Source: a virus
DNA length: 30,219 bases
Reading direction: 5' to 3' (one strand)
Virus record (IMG/VR): IMGVR_UViG_3300023174_000489
Location: 1 to 30,219 of that record
Below the pieces are notes generated by a model. It was not told the origin of the DNA. It saw only the letters and a program-made list of their open reading frames with translations, and ran no database searches. Shown here one piece after another: positions 1 to 9,571 of the stretch. The position numbers and the translations under genes are program-made. Within the stretch, counting starts at the first letter, position 1. The number at the start of each line of letters is the position of its first letter.

Positions 1-3000
1 GATGCAGCAGTCACAGTACCTGTTACACTAGCACTTGATCCGGTTATGACTCCGCCCACCGTAGACGCGGCTGTAACTGTGCCACTAGCACTGACTGAGG
101 TGCCAAACACATTGCCATTGAAATTGCTTGCATTGACGTTGGCACCTACTGTGAGTACGTTTGATGCTTTGTTGAATGTGAATCCAGATACTGCGTTGGC
201 TACTCCTCCATCGTTGAACAACACTTGAGTGTTGGCGCCAGGTGATGTGACTGAACCTTGTATGTTACCAATCAACCAAGCAGCTGTGACATTGCCTGTG
301 GCACTGACATTGCCGCTGGTTAAAATATTTCCACCAGTTACGTTACCGCTCAGCGATGCAGATGTACCAGTTATCACACCACCCACTGTACTAGCGGCAG
401 TGGCAGTACCTGTGACACTAACACTTGATCCGGTAATAACACCGCCCACAGTTGAGGCAGCTGTTTGACTGCCAGTTACGCTTGTTGATGTACCAGTGAT
501 TACTCCACCAGCAACACTGGCGGCTGTTACCCCGCCTGTGACACTTGCACTTGATCCAGTGATAACACCACCTACAGTGCTTGCCGCTGTGACTGTGCCA
601 CTGGTGCTGATAGCACCTGTGCTTAAAACGTTGCCACCTGTGATGTTGCCAGTAGCACTTACTGTGCCACCTGTAGCCAAGTTTCCACCAGTGATGGTTC
701 CAGTGGCACTTGCTATGCCACCTGTTAATAAATTACCACCTGATACATTGGCTGCTGAACTTATGTTGCCTGTGGCACTTACAATGCCACCTGTGAGAAG
801 GTTACCGGCTGTGGTGTTGCCAGTGACACTTGTGCTTGAACCAGTTATAACACCGCCCACTGTACTAGCCGCAGTGGCTGTACCTGTGACGCTGACACTC
901 GATCCAGTGATCACACCACCCACTGTGCTGGCTGCTGTTTGTGTGCCTGTAACACTAGAACTTGATCCAGTGATTACGCCACCAACCGTGCTGGCAGCTG
1001 TGGCTGTGCCTGTGACGCTGACACTCGATCCCGTGATAACTCCACCTACTGTGCTGGCTGCTGTTTGAGTGCCAGTTACGCTTGTTGATGTGCCAGTGAT
1101 TACTCCACCTGCCACTGAAGCGGCTGTGACACCACCTGATACAGAAGTTGATGTGCCTGTAATTACGCCACCTGCCACTGAAGCGGCTGTGACGCCACCT
1201 GTGACACTTGCACTTGAGCCAGTTATAACACCACCCACTGTGCTGGCCGCTGTTACTGCGCCTGTTAGGCTTAAACTTGTACCTGTGGCAGCACCAATGT
1301 TGGGTGTGGTTAGGTTTGCACCGGCCTTGACCGAGATATTACCAGAACCATCAAAGGCCGTGGTGTTGTTGTCAACTTTGGCACTGAATGTTTGACCAAC
1401 CAGGCTCAAACCAGCTGCGGTGTTGGCTGAATAAATCTGTGCTTGGCTGAACTGGGCAAATGTGATATTGCTGGTGCCAAACGTGATGGTTCCTTGTGGG
1501 GCATCAACCACATAGGCGCTGCCCAAGTTAACGTTACCGCCCTGTACAAAAAAGTAGTCGTTGATACTGAGCTGTTCTGCGCTGTTAGGACCGTATTCGT
1601 CAGCGTCCGAGGCACGTGTGATCACTGTTGCGTTTGACCACACATATATACCATTTTGTACAGCATTGGCCTGATCTTTGACCAAGATCCTTGTGCCCAC
1701 GGTCTGTACGTTGGCTGTGTCGATGAGGTTGAACGAGCCAGTTGTGGTTAACGTAGCACCAACGCCATTGGCAACACCGTTGGGTTGTGCGTAGGTAACG
1801 GTACCGCCTGTGGCAGTGGCCAAGGTAGTAGTGGTAGCCACCTGCACCGCTGGGTGGAAGGTAAGAGCTGTGGAAGCCAGGAGATCAACATAGTATTTGC
1901 TGGCCACGTCTGCGTTTTGTTGTGGGGTTAGTTGCACTCCGTTGATGTAGGTATTGTTAAGAACAATGTTGCCTGACGTGGTATCAAGATTTATGTTGCC
2001 AGAACCAGCTTTGATTGTTACCGCAGTTGCATTATAAAGTTGTGCCGCATTGACATTGGGACCAGTGATATTGCCTGTGGTACTGACGGTTGAACCTGTA
2101 ATCACGCCACCAACGGTTGAGGCAGCAGTTTGTGTGCCAGTAACACTTGTAGAGCTACCTGTGATCACACCACCCACTGTGCTGGCTGCTGTTTGTGTGC
2201 CAGTGACACTTGTGCTTGAACCAGTTATAACACCGCCCACTGTACTAGCCGCAGTGGCTGTGCCAGTTACGCTGACACTCGATCCAGTGATCACACCACC
2301 CACTGTTGAGGCAGCCGTAGCAATACCGCTGGTGGTTACATTCCCAGCAGTTACGTTGCCACTCAGGCTGGCGCTGGTGCCAGTAATAACACCACCCACT
2401 GTACTAGCGGCAGTGGCAGTACCTGTGACACTGACACTCGATCCTGTGATCACACCACCAACTGTACTAGCGGCAGTTTGTGTACCGGTTACACTTGAAC
2501 TTGAGCCTGTGATAACACCGCCCACTGTACTTGCGGCAGTTTGTGTACCGGTTACACTAGAGCTTGAGCCTGTGATAACACCGCCCACTGTACTTGCGGC
2601 AGTTTGTGTACCGGTTACACTAGAGCTTGAGCCTGTGATAACACCACCTACGGTACTGGCCGCTGTGACTGTACCGCTGGCACTGACCGAGGTGCCAAAC
2701 ACATTGCCATTGAAATTGGCGGCGTTGACGTTGCCACCCACAGTGACCAAATTTGATGTTTTGTTGAATGTGAATCCGCCGGTGGCATTGGCTGTGCCGT
2801 TGTCGTTGAATATGACCTCGGTGTTGGCACCAGGTGATGAGATTGAACCTTGGATATTACCAATCAACCAAGAGGCACTTACGTTACCGCTGGCAGTTAC
2901 GTTGCCAGAAACACTGACACTCGATCCTGTGATAACACCACCCACTGTGCTTGCGGCAGTTTGAGTGCCAGTTACAGAAGTAGAAGTTCCAGTGATCACT

Positions 3001-3929
3001 CCACCCACTGTAGACGCGGCTGTTTGTGTGCCCGTTACCGATGTTGATGTGCCGGTGATAACTCCACCAACGGTTGAGGCGGCAGTGGCAGTACCTGTGA
3101 CACTAACACTTGATCCGGTGATAACACCACCCACTGTGCTTGCGGCAGTTTGAGTGCCAGTTACAGAAGTAGAAGTTCCAGTGATTACTCCGCCAGCAAC
3201 ACTGGCGGCTGTTACTCCACCTGTGACACTTGCACTTGAGCCAGTTATAACACCACCCACAGTGCTGGCCGCTGTGACCGTACCGGTTACACTGACATTG
3301 GTGCCTGTGTGATTGGTTGCTTGTACGTTGCCAAATGTGGCATTGCCAGTTCCGCTAACAGTACCGCCAGTGGCTATGTTGCCACCTGTGATGGTGCCTG
3401 TGGCTGAAATCAAGCCCGGTGTGAGCAGATTGCCACTAGTGACGTTGCCCGTGAAATTGACGGCGCCAATGATGTTGCCAACCAGGCTGGTTGTGCCTTC
3501 AACTATGGCATTGCCTGTGTGCAGATTGGCATAAGAACTAATGGTAAATGTGGTGTTGGAAACTGTGGTGGTGCTGAGTGCGGTTACGAATTCTTTTTGG
3601 CTTTCTTTCCAGGCCAACACCGCAGAGTTTTGGCTTCCGCGCAGACCAATGGTACCAATGTCCAGTGTGGGTGCGCCCGAGGTTTGTCCATCGGCCAAGG
3701 TGATCAAAGGATCCAGGATCAAGGTATTGACTGTGTCTACCGCAGTGGTAGTTCCGTTGACTGTCAAGTTACCCGAAATAGTAAGATCAGAACCATAGGT
3801 CAAATTGTTGGCGATCTTGGTAGAAGTGATCGAATAGTTCTGCAGTTTGGCCGCAGCATTGACACCTACCAGAGTATTACCTGCAATAGAGTCTGTGATC
3901 TGATTGTTATTAATTCGTGTGACTGGCAT
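1..3929 (-). CDS. Giant repeat-rich tail-fibre protein (partial, C-terminus beyond window)
   Basis: The frame is open on the minus strand from ATG 3929 to the left edge (at least 1309 codons), with Shine-Dalgarno GGAG upstream (GGAGATAAAAATG). The N-terminus (MPVTRINNNQITDSIAG) leads into a fibre-type head with LTVNG and an ITLADG segment. Then come about 27 copies of a 21-residue repeat of the form GGVITGxSxSVTGxxTAAST (63 bp each), suggesting a beta-solenoid or fibrous shaft. Around residue 677 is an ASKYYVD motif. Near residue 750 is an RILVKDQ...NGIYVW segment, as in many phage tail-fibre proteins. Two copies of a longer module contain FNDxGxANAxxGFTFNK. The role is inferred as a virion adhesin or long fibre. 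Plus-strand open frames here are shadows of the repeat. The family is clear in type, but the exact T4 counterpart cannot be assigned. Confidence 0.85.
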   Translation of the reverse strand, partial: MPVTRINNNQITDSIAGNTLVGVNAAAKLQNYSITSTKIANNLTYGSDLTISGNLTVNGTTTAVDTVNTLILDPLITLADGQTSGAPTLDIGTIGLRGSQNSAVLAWKESQKEFVTALSTTTVSNTTFTISSYANLHTGNAIVEGTTSLVGNIIGAVNFTGNVTSGNLLTPGLISATGTITGGNIATGGTVSGTGNATFGNVQATNHTGTNVSVTGTVTAASTVGGVITGSSASVTGGVTAASVAGGVITGTSTSVTGTQTAASTVGGVITGSSVSVTGTATAASTVGGVITGTSTSVTGTQTAASTVGGVITGTSTSVTGTQTAASTVGGVITGSSVSVSGNVTASGNVSASWLIGNIQGSISSPGANTEVIFNDNGTANATGGFTFNKTSNLVTVGGNVNAANFNGNVFGTSVSASGTVTAASTVGGVITGSSSSVTGTQTAASTVGGVITGSSSSVTGTQTAASTVGGVITGSSSSVTGTQTAASTVGGVITGSSVSVTGTATAASTVGGVITGTSASLSGNVTAGNVTTSGIATAASTVGGVITGSSVSVTGTATAASTVGGVITGSSTSVTGTQTAASTVGGVITGSSTSVTGTQTAASTVGGVITGSTVSTTGNITGPNVNAAQLYNATAVTIKAGSGNINLDTTSGNIVLNNTYINGVQLTPQQNADVASKYYVDLLASTALTFHPAVQVATTTTLATATGGTVTYAQPNGVANGVGATLTTTGSFNLIDTANVQTVGTRILVKDQANAVQNGIYVWSNATVITRASDADEYGPNSAEQLSINDYFFVQGGNVNLGSAYVVDAPQGTITFGTSNITFAQFSQAQIYSANTAAGLSLVGQTFSAKVDNNTTAFDGSGNISVKAGANLTTPNIGAATGTSLSLTGAVTAASTVGGVITGSSASVTGGVTAASVAGGVITGTSTSVSGGVTAASVAGGVITGTSTSVTGTQTAASTVGGVITGSSVSVTGTATAASTVGGVITGSSSSVTGTQTAASTVGGVITGSSVSVTGTATAASTVGGVITGSSTSVTGNTTAGNLLTGGIVSATGNISSAANVSGGNLLTGGIASATGTITGGNLATGGTVSATGNITGGNVLSTGAISTSGTVTAASTVGGVITGSSASVTGGVTAASVAGGVITGTSTSVTGSQTAASTVGGVITGSSVSVTGTATAASTVGGVITGTSASLSGNVTGGNILTSGNVSATGNVTAAWLIGNIQGSVTSPGANTQVLFNDGGVANAVSGFTFNKASNVLTVGANVNASNFNGNVFGTSVSASGTVTAASTVGGVITGSSASVTGTVTAA
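77..317 (-). repeat. Fibre cassette, copy A of a duplicated ~240-bp module
   Basis: This segment aligns at high identity with 2668-2908. Both copies share gaggtgccaaacacattgcc, and the encoded protein shares LIGNIQGS, SPGxNTxVxFND, GFTFNK and NFNGNVFGTS. It lies inside the giant fibre gene and is flanked on both sides by the 63-bp repeats. Confidence 0.8.
2668..2908 (-). repeat. Fibre cassette, copy B of a duplicated ~240-bp module
   Basis: This is the partner of the copy at 77-317, about 2.6 kb apart in the same reading frame and orientation. The shared modules (LIGNIQGS ... FNDNGTANATGGFTFNK ... NFNGNVFGTS) show an internal duplication within the fibre gene. Related FND modules also occur in the genes at 4175-5455 and 6206-6808. 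Confidence 0.8.
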
Positions 3930-3960
3930 TTTTATCTCCGGTTGCCATTTTGTACCACCA

Positions 3961-3980
3961 TTGATGACCATGGTCATCAA
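3961..3980. promoter_or_regulatory. Perfect 20-bp palindrome in the fibre-gene leader
   Basis: The sequence ttgatgaccatggtcatcaa is identical to its own reverse complement. It lies 32 bp upstream of ATG 3929, between the late promoter box at 4021-4028 and the gene. It could be a dimer-protein operator or an mRNA hairpin; the function is unknown. Confidence 0.6.
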
Positions 3981-4174: not shown

Positions 4175-5455
4175 TTACAGGAATCTAATGTCTATGACAT
4201 CGCTGGGTGCTGGTGCTTCAGTAAACACCAAATTGACGCTGGGATTTGGACTCATGTTGTAGCTCTGGCCCGGAATTTGTGTGATACCGTTGAGCATGAT
4301 CAAGGCAGCTGCTGTGGTAGTTGAACGATCCAAGGTAAAAGTCGTGGTTGATCCATCGCCGTAGATTATTTGATTGGTCACTCCGCCCACCACTGTGTCC
4401 CACTCGGAGCCATCATAAACTTCAAGTCTACCCAGGGTAGAATTAAATCTCACGGTGCCCGTGGTTGCTGGACTTGGACGCTGGGCAGTGTTGCCCACTG
4501 GAACAGCTAGGCCTGTTGTTGTGTTGACGTAAACTATGCCTGTGCCTGTGGGCTGTAGCACCACATTGCCAATGGTAGAATCTGTGGTTATGGTAGTGTT
4601 GGCTAGGCGCAGATTGGCCAAACTTGCTGTGACAGCCTGTATGTCGCCGTTTGAGCGTAAATTTCCGCCGGTGACATTGCCGGTGGCCGTGATTAGTCCG
4701 CCTGTGGCTATATTACCACTAGTGATGTTACCGGTGGCACTGACGGCGTTGGCTGTGACCACATTGGCACCGGTGATGTTGCCACCGGTTAAGATTATAT
4801 CGCCGCCTGAGCCCGAGGTAACAACATTGCCAGCAGTGATGTTTCCTGTGACTGTGACAGCGTTGCTGGTCTTGTCAAATGTGAATCCAGCACTGGCATT
4901 GGCTGTGCCTGCGTCATTGAATATGACCTCGGTGTTGGCACCCGGTGAACTGATATTGCCTGAAATGTTACCAACAAAATTAGCGGCATAAACATTGCCG
5001 GCTGTGCTGACGTTGCCAGCCGTGACGTTGCCAGTGGCAGAAATCACGCCCGTGGTCAGTATGTTACCCCCACTCACATTGCCAGCAACATTGAGATTGG
5101 CTATGTTGGCTGTGGCATTCACTGTGAGTAAATTGCCCGCTGTGTCGAAAGTCAAATTGGCACTGGCACCAAAATTGTTGTTGTCGTTGAATTGGATCTG
5201 TGTGTTTGATCCTGCAGGTTGTTGCAGGTCCCAGGGCACTCCGTTGGCATACAGCAGGTTATCGGTGAGCAGATTTCCTGTGGCTATGTTACCAGCAGTG
5301 CTGAGATTTCCAAGAATCACATTGCCAACCACTTCAAGCCTGGCAGTGGGCGAATTGGTACCGATTCCCACATTGGCATTGGCAATAGCGATATCTATGC
5401 CATCTCGTTCAAGAACGCTTGATAGTATTTGCCCTTTTACGTAGTTGACTGCCAT
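4175..5455 (-). CDS. Tail-fibre-like virion protein, 426 aa
   Basis: It starts at ATG 5455 with AAGGA upstream. The N-terminus carries NVGIGTNSPTARLEVVGNV, a motif common in phage fibres. Two FND modules follow (NTQIQFNDNNNFGASANLTF and NTEVIFNDAGTANASAGFTF), separated by many TATGN(V/I)TxGN turns suggesting a beta-repeat shaft. A further segment (AQRPSPATTGTVRFNSTLGRLEVYDGSEW) precedes a C-terminal domain beginning IIYGDGSTTTFTLD. The last two modules recur in the 132-aa neighbour, so the fibre module was built by domain shuffling. It probably sits on the virion as a fibre or fibre-tip protein. The receptor is unknown. Confidence 0.8.
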   Translation of the reverse strand: MAVNYVKGQILSSVLERDGIDIAIANANVGIGTNSPTARLEVVGNVILGNLSTAGNIATGNLLTDNLLYANGVPWDLQQPAGSNTQIQFNDNNNFGASANLTFDTAGNLLTVNATANIANLNVAGNVSGGNILTTGVISATGNVTAGNVSTAGNVYAANFVGNISGNISSPGANTEVIFNDAGTANASAGFTFDKTSNAVTVTGNITAGNVVTSGSGGDIILTGGNITGANVVTANAVSATGNITSGNIATGGLITATGNVTGGNLRSNGDIQAVTASLANLRLANTTITTDSTIGNVVLQPTGTGIVYVNTTTGLAVPVGNTAQRPSPATTGTVRFNSTLGRLEVYDGSEWDTVVGGVTNQIIYGDGSTTTFTLDRSTTTAAALIMLNGITQIPGQSYNMSPNPSVNLVFTEAPAPSDVIDIRFL

Positions 5456-6205: not shown

Positions 6206-6808
6206 TTAAAATATGATTGCAAATACTATGGCCTTGCTCTTGCTGACCAATTCGTCATTAGCACTTGCGCTGGTAAAATACAGGCCAGTGCCGCCGGCAC
6301 CAACCACATTACTATACAGTGCCACAGCATTGGCCACATTGGCCGGTGTCGCACGATTACCAAATATCTGGTGCCCTAGCAGAGTTAGTTTGTTGGTGCT
6401 GTAGTCAAAGGTTAAATTTGCGCTGGCTCCAAATGCGCCGCTTTGATTGAACTGTATTTGCGTGTCGGATCCTGCCACTGTGCCTGCACCGCCTGCGGAC
6501 AAGTTTGCATAAGCAGCTATAGGAACACCGTTGGCATATACGCTACTGCTGATCTGCCAGGCATTGGCACTCACATCAAATCGCAAACCCGCATAGGCTG
6601 TGTTGGCCACCTTGGTAGCTATCAGGCCCATGTCGTTGACTGTGCCGGTGTTGTTGGCAGCAACAATTATGAATGCATCATTGACTGCAATTTCGCTGAC
6701 ATAGGTCACGTTACCAGAGATGTCCAAATTGCCATCAATGTAGATGGTGCCTTGTCCGCTGTCAACTGTGATATACCAATTGTCGCTGATATTTTTGTAG
6801 CTAGCCAT
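6206..6808 (-). CDS. Fibre-type virion protein, 200 aa
   Basis: It starts at ATG 6808 with AAGGATC upstream and a CATAAATA box at 6825-6832. Residues 1-90 contain IYIDGNLDISGNVTYV, then AFIIVAANN and YAGLRFDVSANAWQIS. These parallel the N-terminal part of the giant fibre (LTISGNLTVNG ... ITLADG ... W). A DTQIQFNQSGAFGASANLTF module follows, equivalent to the FND modules of the two larger fibre genes. The ATG shares one base with the preceding stop codon. It is probably a short fibre or connector sharing an ancestral head domain with its neighbours. Confidence 0.7.
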   Translation of the reverse strand: MASYKNISDNWYITVDSGQGTIYIDGNLDISGNVTYVSEIAVNDAFIIVAANNTGTVNDMGLIATKVANTAYAGLRFDVSANAWQISSSVYANGVPIAAYANLSAGGAGTVAGSDTQIQFNQSGAFGASANLTFDYSTNKLTLLGHQIFGNRATPANVANAVALYSNVVGAGGTGLYFTSASANDELVSKSKAIVFAIIF

Positions 6809-7395
6809 TAAAGATCCTTTTTGTTATTTATGCGGTCCAAGAAGGTGTGCAAGTCAAGGTGTGAAAGATTATTTATAGTGGCAAAATCTTTGACCGTGGC
6901 AGTTGTTGGGCTTTGTATCCGCACAAACTGCACTTGCCTGTGATCATGCATGATTTTTGTCAATTGTTTCATCCAATTTCCAGTGAACGTGGGCGGAGCA
7001 TGGGAGGGTTTATAAAACTCTGTGCCGGCATACAAGTTGTTGATGGTGTTGTTGGCAGTGGGGCCCATGTCAAAACCCAGCAAAAATATGCGACGGTGTC
7101 CGTCCTTGGCAGCTATTCCCACGGCCAAGGGTCCACTGCTGTATCCAAAATAGTCCTCGGGCACGGCCCGAGCGCCCAGTCCTTCTATGGGTTTGCGAGT
7201 ATGGAATCTGTGATTTAAACTGTAGCCTGAGTTTTGTATGTGTTCGGCTATGGGGCGATCTGTGGCAATCAAAACATCAGGAGTAAACTCTCTATACAAG
7301 GCATTGCATCCATAGATTTTTCCATAGGCTTTTAGCGTTTCCAAGTCTATGTCTTTGCGGCCGGTGCCGTTGCCAAGTACGAATGCTGTGGTCAT
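6808..7395 (-). CDS. Putative GT42/DUF115-like nucleotide-sugar or nucleotide-binding protein, 195 aa
   Basis: The N-terminus reads TAFVLGNGTGRKDIDLETLK, then YGCNALYR and PDVLIATD. Later comes GPLAVGIAAKDGHRRIFLLG followed by FDMG. This GNGxSxxxID ... CN..Y ... A..A...G...I.L.G.D pattern is that of the GT42 sialyltransferase and DUF115/MptE-like Rossmann proteins. The activity may be glycosyl transfer, but this rests on motif resemblance and no catalytic residue can be assigned with confidence. The start ATG 7395 follows a terminator hairpin whose 3' arm supplies the ribosome site. It lies between virion genes, so virion or host glycan modification is a reasonable guess. Confidence 0.55.
   Translation of the reverse strand: MTTAFVLGNGTGRKDIDLETLKAYGKIYGCNALYREFTPDVLIATDRPIAEHIQNSGYSLNHRFHTRKPIEGLGARAVPEDYFGYSSGPLAVGIAAKDGHRRIFLLGFDMGPTANNTINNLYAGTEFYKPSHAPPTFTGNWMKQLTKIMHDHRQVQFVRIQSPTTATVKDFATINNLSHLDLHTFLDRINNKKDL
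6825..6832 (-). promoter_or_regulatory. Late promoter box CATAAATA
   Basis: This minus-strand match to NATAAATA lies 16 bp before ATG 6808, leaving a leader of about 10 nt that still includes the AAGGATC ribosome site. It would drive the 6808-to-4175 fibre genes. Confidence 0.5.
6870..6877 (-). promoter_or_regulatory. Late promoter box TATAAATA inside upstream gene
   Basis: This exact late consensus on the minus strand lies inside the 3' end of the 195-aa gene, 61 bp before ATG 6808. With the box at 6825 it forms a tandem pair. Confidence 0.5.
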
Positions 7396-8425: not shown

Positions 8426-9571
8426 ATGCACACAGAAGAACTCATAGCCCTGGGCAATCAGGCCCGAGAAGACAACGATCCTGAAACTGCCTTGCAATAC
8501 TATGCACAGGCCTTGACGCAAGATCGCAATTCGGCCAGTGCATTCAACAACTATGGCAATGTGCTACGCGAGTGCGGTGATCCCCAAGGTGGTATACCAT
8601 TCTTGCTGAGAAGCATAACCCTGGCGCCCGAACACCCTACCGCTAGATTCAATCTGGCAGTGGCGTTGTTGTTGAGTGGAGACTACGCCCAAGGATTCAA
8701 GGCCTACGAAAGCCGCTGGAACTACGAACACCTAGCTGGCACTTTGCCCAATTGGCCACAGCCCAGGTGGACTGGACAAGACCTACAAGGCAAAACAGTT
8801 TACATCATGGGTGAGCAAGGTCATGGTGACAACATACAGTTTGTGAGATTTGTAGGTGATGTGGCGGATCGTGGCGCCAAAGTTGTATTGGCAGTGAATC
8901 AAAGTTTGAGACCTTTGTTCCAGGGGCCCAGCATACCTCACATCGTGTGCGACGGCGAGGCCTTGCCTGAGTTTGACTACTGGATACCTATAATGAGCAT
9001 ACCCGGAGTTATAGGCACAACTCTAGAAAACCTAGCGCAGGTGCAGTATTATTTGACAGCAGATAAAACTCTGGAACGGCAATGGCAACAACGCCTGGGT
9101 CCAAAAAAACGACTGCGTGTGGGATTTTGTTGGTCGGGTCGACGTGACACCTGGATCAACCGTCACAAAGGCATGCCTTTTGATACCATGTTGACATTGA
9201 TAAAAAAGAATCCAAACTACGAATGGGTCAACCTACAGTGCGATTGTACCAACGAGGAAGAGGCAGCCTTGGTAGCCGCCGGAGTCACGGCTTATCCAAA
9301 TAGCATACAGAGCTTTGCTGATTCTGCTGCCTTGATCATGCACATGGATGTAGTGCTCAGCGTAGACACTGCTGTGGCTCACTTAGCCGGTGCATTGGGT
9401 CGACCTGTGTGGGTCATGCTGAGTCATTTTGCATTGGATTGGCGCTGGCTGTTGAATCGTGATGACAGTCCATGGTATACCACAGCTCGGCTGTTTCGTC
9501 AACCCGCTATGGGCGACTGGCACTCAGTCACAGAAAAAATACACAAGTTTCTTAGTTGGTATAAAATTTAA
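8426..9571 (+). CDS. TPR-glycosyltransferase (GT9/GT41-like), 381 aa
   Basis: The frame is open from ATG 8378, but 8426 (MHTEELIALGNQARE) starts exactly at the first TPR helix. Residues about 3-104 form three TPR units (ALQYYAQAL, AFNNYGNVLRECGD, ARFNLAVALLLSGDY). From about residue 115 comes a GT-B-type domain with GEQGHGDNIQFVRFV, RLRVGFCWSGR and the nucleotide-sugar site SVDTAVAHLAGALGRPVW, then a WYTTARLFRQ segment. TPR proteins with this tail are common in bacteria and aquatic phages. The likely role is sugar transfer to a virion or host target; donor and acceptor are unknown. It is the only plus-strand gene within the 1-17.8 kb minus-strand block and ends in a terminator. Confidence 0.85.
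   Translation: MHTEELIALGNQAREDNDPETALQYYAQALTQDRNSASAFNNYGNVLRECGDPQGGIPFLLRSITLAPEHPTARFNLAVALLLSGDYAQGFKAYESRWNYEHLAGTLPNWPQPRWTGQDLQGKTVYIMGEQGHGDNIQFVRFVGDVADRGAKVVLAVNQSLRPLFQGPSIPHIVCDGEALPEFDYWIPIMSIPGVIGTTLENLAQVQYYLTADKTLERQWQQRLGPKKRLRVGFCWSGRRDTWINRHKGMPFDTMLTLIKKNPNYEWVNLQCDCTNEEEAALVAAGVTAYPNSIQSFADSAALIMHMDVVLSVDTAVAHLAGALGRPVWVMLSHFALDWRWLLNRDDSPWYTTARLFRQPAMGDWHSVTEKIHKFLSWYKI

Follow-up and report, generated by a model that had tools for sequence, protein, structure and literature searches.

The window, i.e., the whole 30,219-base virus record analysed here, comes from a large uncultured aquatic virus infecting bacteria and is, judging from its genes, a fragment of a T4-like jumbo phage. 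Its major capsid protein showed 60-66% identity to those of jumbo phages (e.g., PA5oct and GAP32), and genes encoding a portal protein and an SbcC/gp46-like recombination protein were also present. The fibre-like gene lies in an open reading frame spanning 3-3980 on the minus strand (Table 1), with its likely start at the ATG at 3929-3927, just downstream of a GGAG motif at 3939-3936; the corresponding N-terminal start, MPVTRINNNQ, is kept in relatives. Within the same fibre cassette, the gene at 6808-7395 matched phrog_30607 and, weakly, an alpha-2,3-sialyltransferase PHROG, and its synteny near fibre genes is kept in many relatives.

Table 1. Features of the fibre-like gene and its neighbour, in window coordinates.
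Feature	Coordinates	Strand	Remarks
Fibre-like gene	3..3929	-	1309 codons; 3' end lost at window end
N-terminal domain, conserved, about 224 aa	3258..3929	-	57-90% aa identity to relatives' fibres
Repeat block 1, units 1-6	2880..3257	-	Unit map and unit alignment
Spacer module (SSPGANTEVIFND...)	2649..2879	-	Recurs at 57-320 and in sibling gene; DNA match to 4869-5019, 76%
Repeat block 2, units 7-11	2334..2648	-	Includes the sole near-identical neighbours, units 7-9
Repeat block 3, units 12-15	2049..2300	-	Unit map and unit alignment
Internal domain (INGVQLTPQQNADVASKYYVD ... RILVKDQANAVQNGIYVW)	1236..2048	-	Common to annotated phage fibre proteins
Repeat block 4, units 16-22	795..1235	-	Unit map and unit alignment
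Sister 17-aa (51-bp) repeat run and linker	573..794	-	Tandem Repeats Finder period 51 at 634-740
Repeat block 5, units 23-26	321..572	-	Unit map and unit alignment
Spacer module, second copy	57..320	-	Aligns with 2662-2777 (116 bp, about 85% DNA identity)
Repeat block 6 start, unit 27, truncated	3..56	-	Unit map
Sibling structural gene, upstream	4175..5455	-	Carries same SGN-type modules

The original prediction of about 27 copies of a 63-bp unit in the fibre gene was borne out by a count of exactly 27 GGVITG units, which is a lower limit because the gene is truncated by the window end. The repeat unit (R21, 21 aa) reads GGVITGSSVSVTGTATAASTV; most of its 21 positions were fixed among full units, with variation mainly at positions 7, 9, 14, 15, 20, and 21. 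The units keep a 63-bp spacing within six blocks of 6, 5, 4, 7, 4, and 1 or more, and inserts of 77, 11, 271, 74, and 88 aa split these blocks, so the array is not one continuous run. The array reached a score of up to 395 in Tandem Repeats Finder, and 30 codon shuffles of the gene yielded zero tandem arrays. Given that the longest exact repeat in the gene is shorter than 100 bp, collapse or inflation of the array by assembly is possible but unlikely.

It had also been proposed that some neighbouring units differ by only a few bases, and this holds for units 7-8-9 (1 and 4 differences) but for none of the remaining neighbours. Near-identity of neighbours is accordingly not the rule, as adjacent full units differed at a mean of 17.9 of 63 nucleotides compared with 19.1 for all pairs, the differences between units being chiefly synonymous. 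The near-identical partners identified in the unit alignment were mostly non-adjacent (units 1/23, 2/5, 12/21, 10/21, and 10/25), and DNA tracts of 92-140 bp with 93-97% identity join blocks or neighbours within the gene. Among the R21 units of this gene, pS was 0.61, versus the 0.71-0.73 expected from random codons, and pN was 0.17. Because synonymous sites are near saturation and the amino acids almost fixed, the array is old and under purifying selection. A single copy number everywhere with neutral divergence, which had been named as the pattern that would speak against the original prediction, was not what emerged: copy counts vary among relatives, and divergence departs strongly from neutrality, with pN/pS about 0.28.

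Near-identical copies are confined to single genes. Of 325 units from 35 contigs, 41% had their nearest unit within their own contig, compared with 14% in permutations (maximum 19%). Pairs with four or fewer differences accounted for 44 of 1738 same-gene pairs (2.5%), for 28 of 39181 pairs between contigs (0.07%, mostly from one related pair), and for 0 of 697 pairs between sibling genes on one contig. This same-gene excess, together with the near-identical units found in separate blocks, supports the gene conversion suggested earlier, or block copying, within one gene. Since 20 of the 44 near-identical within-gene pairs were adjacent, tandem duplication matters across the family, though it is rare in the window gene.

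Relatives of the fibre gene and of the capsid were gathered by IMG/VR scans. A degenerate pattern of the R21 unit junction matched 73 stretches of viral contigs, a further pattern added more contigs, and the junction pattern had no match in 84,980 prokaryote genomes (bacterial and archaeal). Complete relatives consist of the N-domain, a repeat shaft, the internal fibre domain (kept in 14 relatives), and a C-terminal domain. The R21 counts in 12 complete genes were 24, 24, 17, 17, 8, 5, 4, 4, 2, 1, 1, and 0, and the second repeat (R17, 17 aa) was abundant in several R21-poor genes, with 2 R21 and 21 R17 units in L009 and 1 R21 and 23 R17 units in L044; the inverse trend between the two counts was not significant in the complete genes (rho -0.28). 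Block sizes also differed between fibres with about 86% DNA identity in the N-domain, being 8,5,5,4,2 versus 4,5,6,2 in one group and 10,11,3 versus 10,5,2 versus 5,6+ in a second. The largest arrays found occur in L174 (239-10014), where two successive fibre genes of 1485 and 1780 aa carry 25 and 33 R21 units, respectively, and a 32-aa spacing variant is frequent. Conservation drops sharply at about position 9570 of the window. On the capsid side, DNA identity to L004 and L009 was 91-94% from 9574 to 12.4-13.8 kb, and on the fibre side little DNA was alignable to them, as if the fibre cassette beyond this boundary had been exchanged or were evolving much faster. The capsid proteins of these two relatives are 98-99% identical to that of the window, and their fibre N-domains near 60%.

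Expansion and contraction of the array, likewise part of the original prediction, are supported both by the layout and copy number of relatives and by near-identical contigs that differ by whole units. These whole-unit differences come from contigs of related phages rather than from the window phage, for whose own fibre no near-identical contig was present among the IMG/VR loci fetched (the closest contigs may escape the search), and every copy count derives from metagenome assemblies. Three in-frame differences of 63, 189, and 51 bp were found. L240 and L259 have one extra 63-bp unit relative to L237, L248, and L256, mid contig in most of them and flanked by kilobases of DNA at about 98-99.9% pairwise identity. 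L007 is without 189 bp (three units) of L005, the junction lying in an 18-bp identity (GTGATCACTGGATCAAGT) less than 100 bp from a contig end; 21 of the 36 mismatches between these two contigs fall within the first 81 bases, marking the three-unit deletion, and beyond the array 15 sites separate the two over about 8.1 kb. L022 has 51 bp more than L027, corresponding to one R17 unit. An assembly artefact is possible for the 63-bp case because of its identical copies and for the 189-bp case because of the contig end; diverged copies are joined in the 51-bp case and at the 189-bp junction, and simple assembly collapse is therefore disfavoured. Recombination between short identities inside the gene would explain both the junctions and the intragenic bias, and for the one-unit difference replication slippage would serve as well. 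Several other near-identical contig pairs were compared and showed unchanged copy number, and turnover is thus not fast. Other length differences were observed as well: L080 (about 14128) and L081, otherwise identical over 12.7 kb, differ by 69 bp in frame in a collagen-like GAQGSTGAT repeat, and L168 (3477) and L212, otherwise identical over 2.9 kb, are set apart by a gap of 2 bp within a structural gene, which may reflect a frameshift or an error of assembly.

On this evidence, the product of the gene is probably a long tail fibre belonging to a T4-like jumbo phage, with an R21/R17 shaft whose units turn over in frame by intragenic recombination, and the array is best read as a new repeat family for an already familiar type of fibre shaft, in which copy number turns over slowly within the gene. 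The conserved N-terminal domain would anchor the fibre, and the shaft, composed of R21 (21 aa, 63 bp) and R17 (17 aa, 51 bp) units, spacer modules, and the internal domain, would join it to a C-terminal domain that is conserved in relatives and would lie beyond the window truncation. Intragenic recombination would duplicate or delete one to a few units in frame and copy sequence between blocks, and the window itself encodes the SbcC/gp46-like recombination protein. Purifying selection meanwhile holds the amino acids of the units nearly fixed, with synonymous sites drifting toward saturation.

It is unlikely that the array is instead old and frozen, with relatives differing by horizontal exchange of fibre genes or modules and near-identical contigs by assembly artefact. 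Such an array would be consistent with synonymous divergence that is near saturation and equal within and between contigs, and the identity values of the capsid genes and the fibre N-domains given above fit cassette exchange; however, near-identical units occur in excess within single genes, and diverged copies meet at the 51-bp and 189-bp junctions, the 18-bp identity, where measured, being shorter than usual assembly k-mers. No difference separates L176, L201, and L204 over 20-24 units, but this is weak evidence of stability because the three may be re-assemblies of one sample.

A standing copy-number polymorphism has a similarly low probability. Here, several unit numbers would coexist in populations, recombination between the short identities of otherwise synonymously diverged units would yield the unit-number variants, and the diverged codons would keep the rate at which shaft length changes low and tunable. 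An adaptive length switch, in which units lengthen the shaft and fibre reach is adjusted by selection, is somewhat more doubtful still. Every difference found was in frame and of whole units, and a precedent has been published in a virophage, where repeat loss accompanied host range (PMC7242381); against this, the R21 count was uncorrelated with protein length in the 12 complete relatives (Spearman 0.17, P = 0.6), and it is the R17 count that tracks length (rho 0.77). The earlier proposal that the copy number of the 63-bp unit sets fibre length consequently finds no support in these genes, and any effect of slow intragenic turnover on reach or adsorption would be conjectural.

As to the protein itself, tail fibre is the best reading because the internal domain and the C-domain match annotated tail-fibre or virion proteins. 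The internal domain (query residues 661-886) gave tblastn matches in phages annotated as tail fiber, the C-domain of one relative matched phrog_22593 and phrog_19602 (tail fiber protein), and C-domains of relatives matched PA5oct-group virion proteins. The R21 array of the window protein matched 0 families in Pfam-A and PHROGs, the Pfam search of this protein and its relatives returned no fibre family, and no BACON domain was detected by Pfam search in the window protein; the Gly-X-Y collagen pattern is absent from the R21 unit. The C-terminal domain of relatives may resemble the Peptidase_G2 or intramolecular chaperone C-terminus; in L004, L005, and L010 it had no Pfam match at E <= 1. PDB sequence searches returned no convincing relative, the weak depolymerase match (E 0.004) being confined to the junction into the internal domain, and one match to the FapA beta-solenoid in a relative was sub-threshold. 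The shaft may be beta-rich, perhaps a beta-solenoid or triple beta-helix. In the AlphaFold model of the array and internal domain, each 21-aa unit has about three short strands at very low confidence (mean pLDDT 44), and Foldseek with this model gave no match at E <= 0.001. The AlphaFold models of the array and of a relative's C-terminal region (pLDDT 45) were too weak for use. A head or whisker fibre is improbable, since most annotated matches are to tail fibres, even though one weak internal-domain match is annotated as head decoration, a sibling gene has its match in a virion structural family that is classed with head and packaging, and the capsid gene is a few kb away.

Fibre shafts built of repeats are known from T4 gp34 and gp37, which the R21 fibre probably resembles in its length, its terminal domains, and a shaft that is repetitive and rich in beta structure, but to which it has no sequence match, its own fold being predicted at low confidence. 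For variation in repeat number of phage fibres, the only close cases in the literature found were papers on BACON arrays and on a virophage. In crAss-like phages, BACON arrays are reported to have grown by internal duplication, with the array of crAssphage stable at eight (PMC6949934). These arrays are, like R21, tail-associated tandem repeats subject to internal duplication and seen by comparison of metagenomic viral contigs; however, the BACON unit is a folded domain that has a Pfam model and relatives in bacteria, whereas R21 comprises 21 aa and matched no model searched, and stability is reported for the array of crAssphage, whereas unit differences occur between near-identical contigs here. 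In Guarani virophage, a deletion in ORF8 removed collagen-like repeats (PMC7242381), so that, as with R21, whole units of a short in-frame repeat are lost within a virus population, but the virophage repeat is collagen-like and linked to host range, and R21 is without Gly-X-Y and is not known to affect host range.

The R21 family has no match among the library models searched, and only in viral contigs was its junction pattern found. Repeat shafts of viral fibres are known, but whole-unit polymorphism within a phage species is little documented in the literature found. In the present family, whole-unit differences can be read in public contigs, with two unit types per shaft and strong amino-acid constraint, and fibre-length variation within a phage population, along with its importance, is a question now open to long-read testing.
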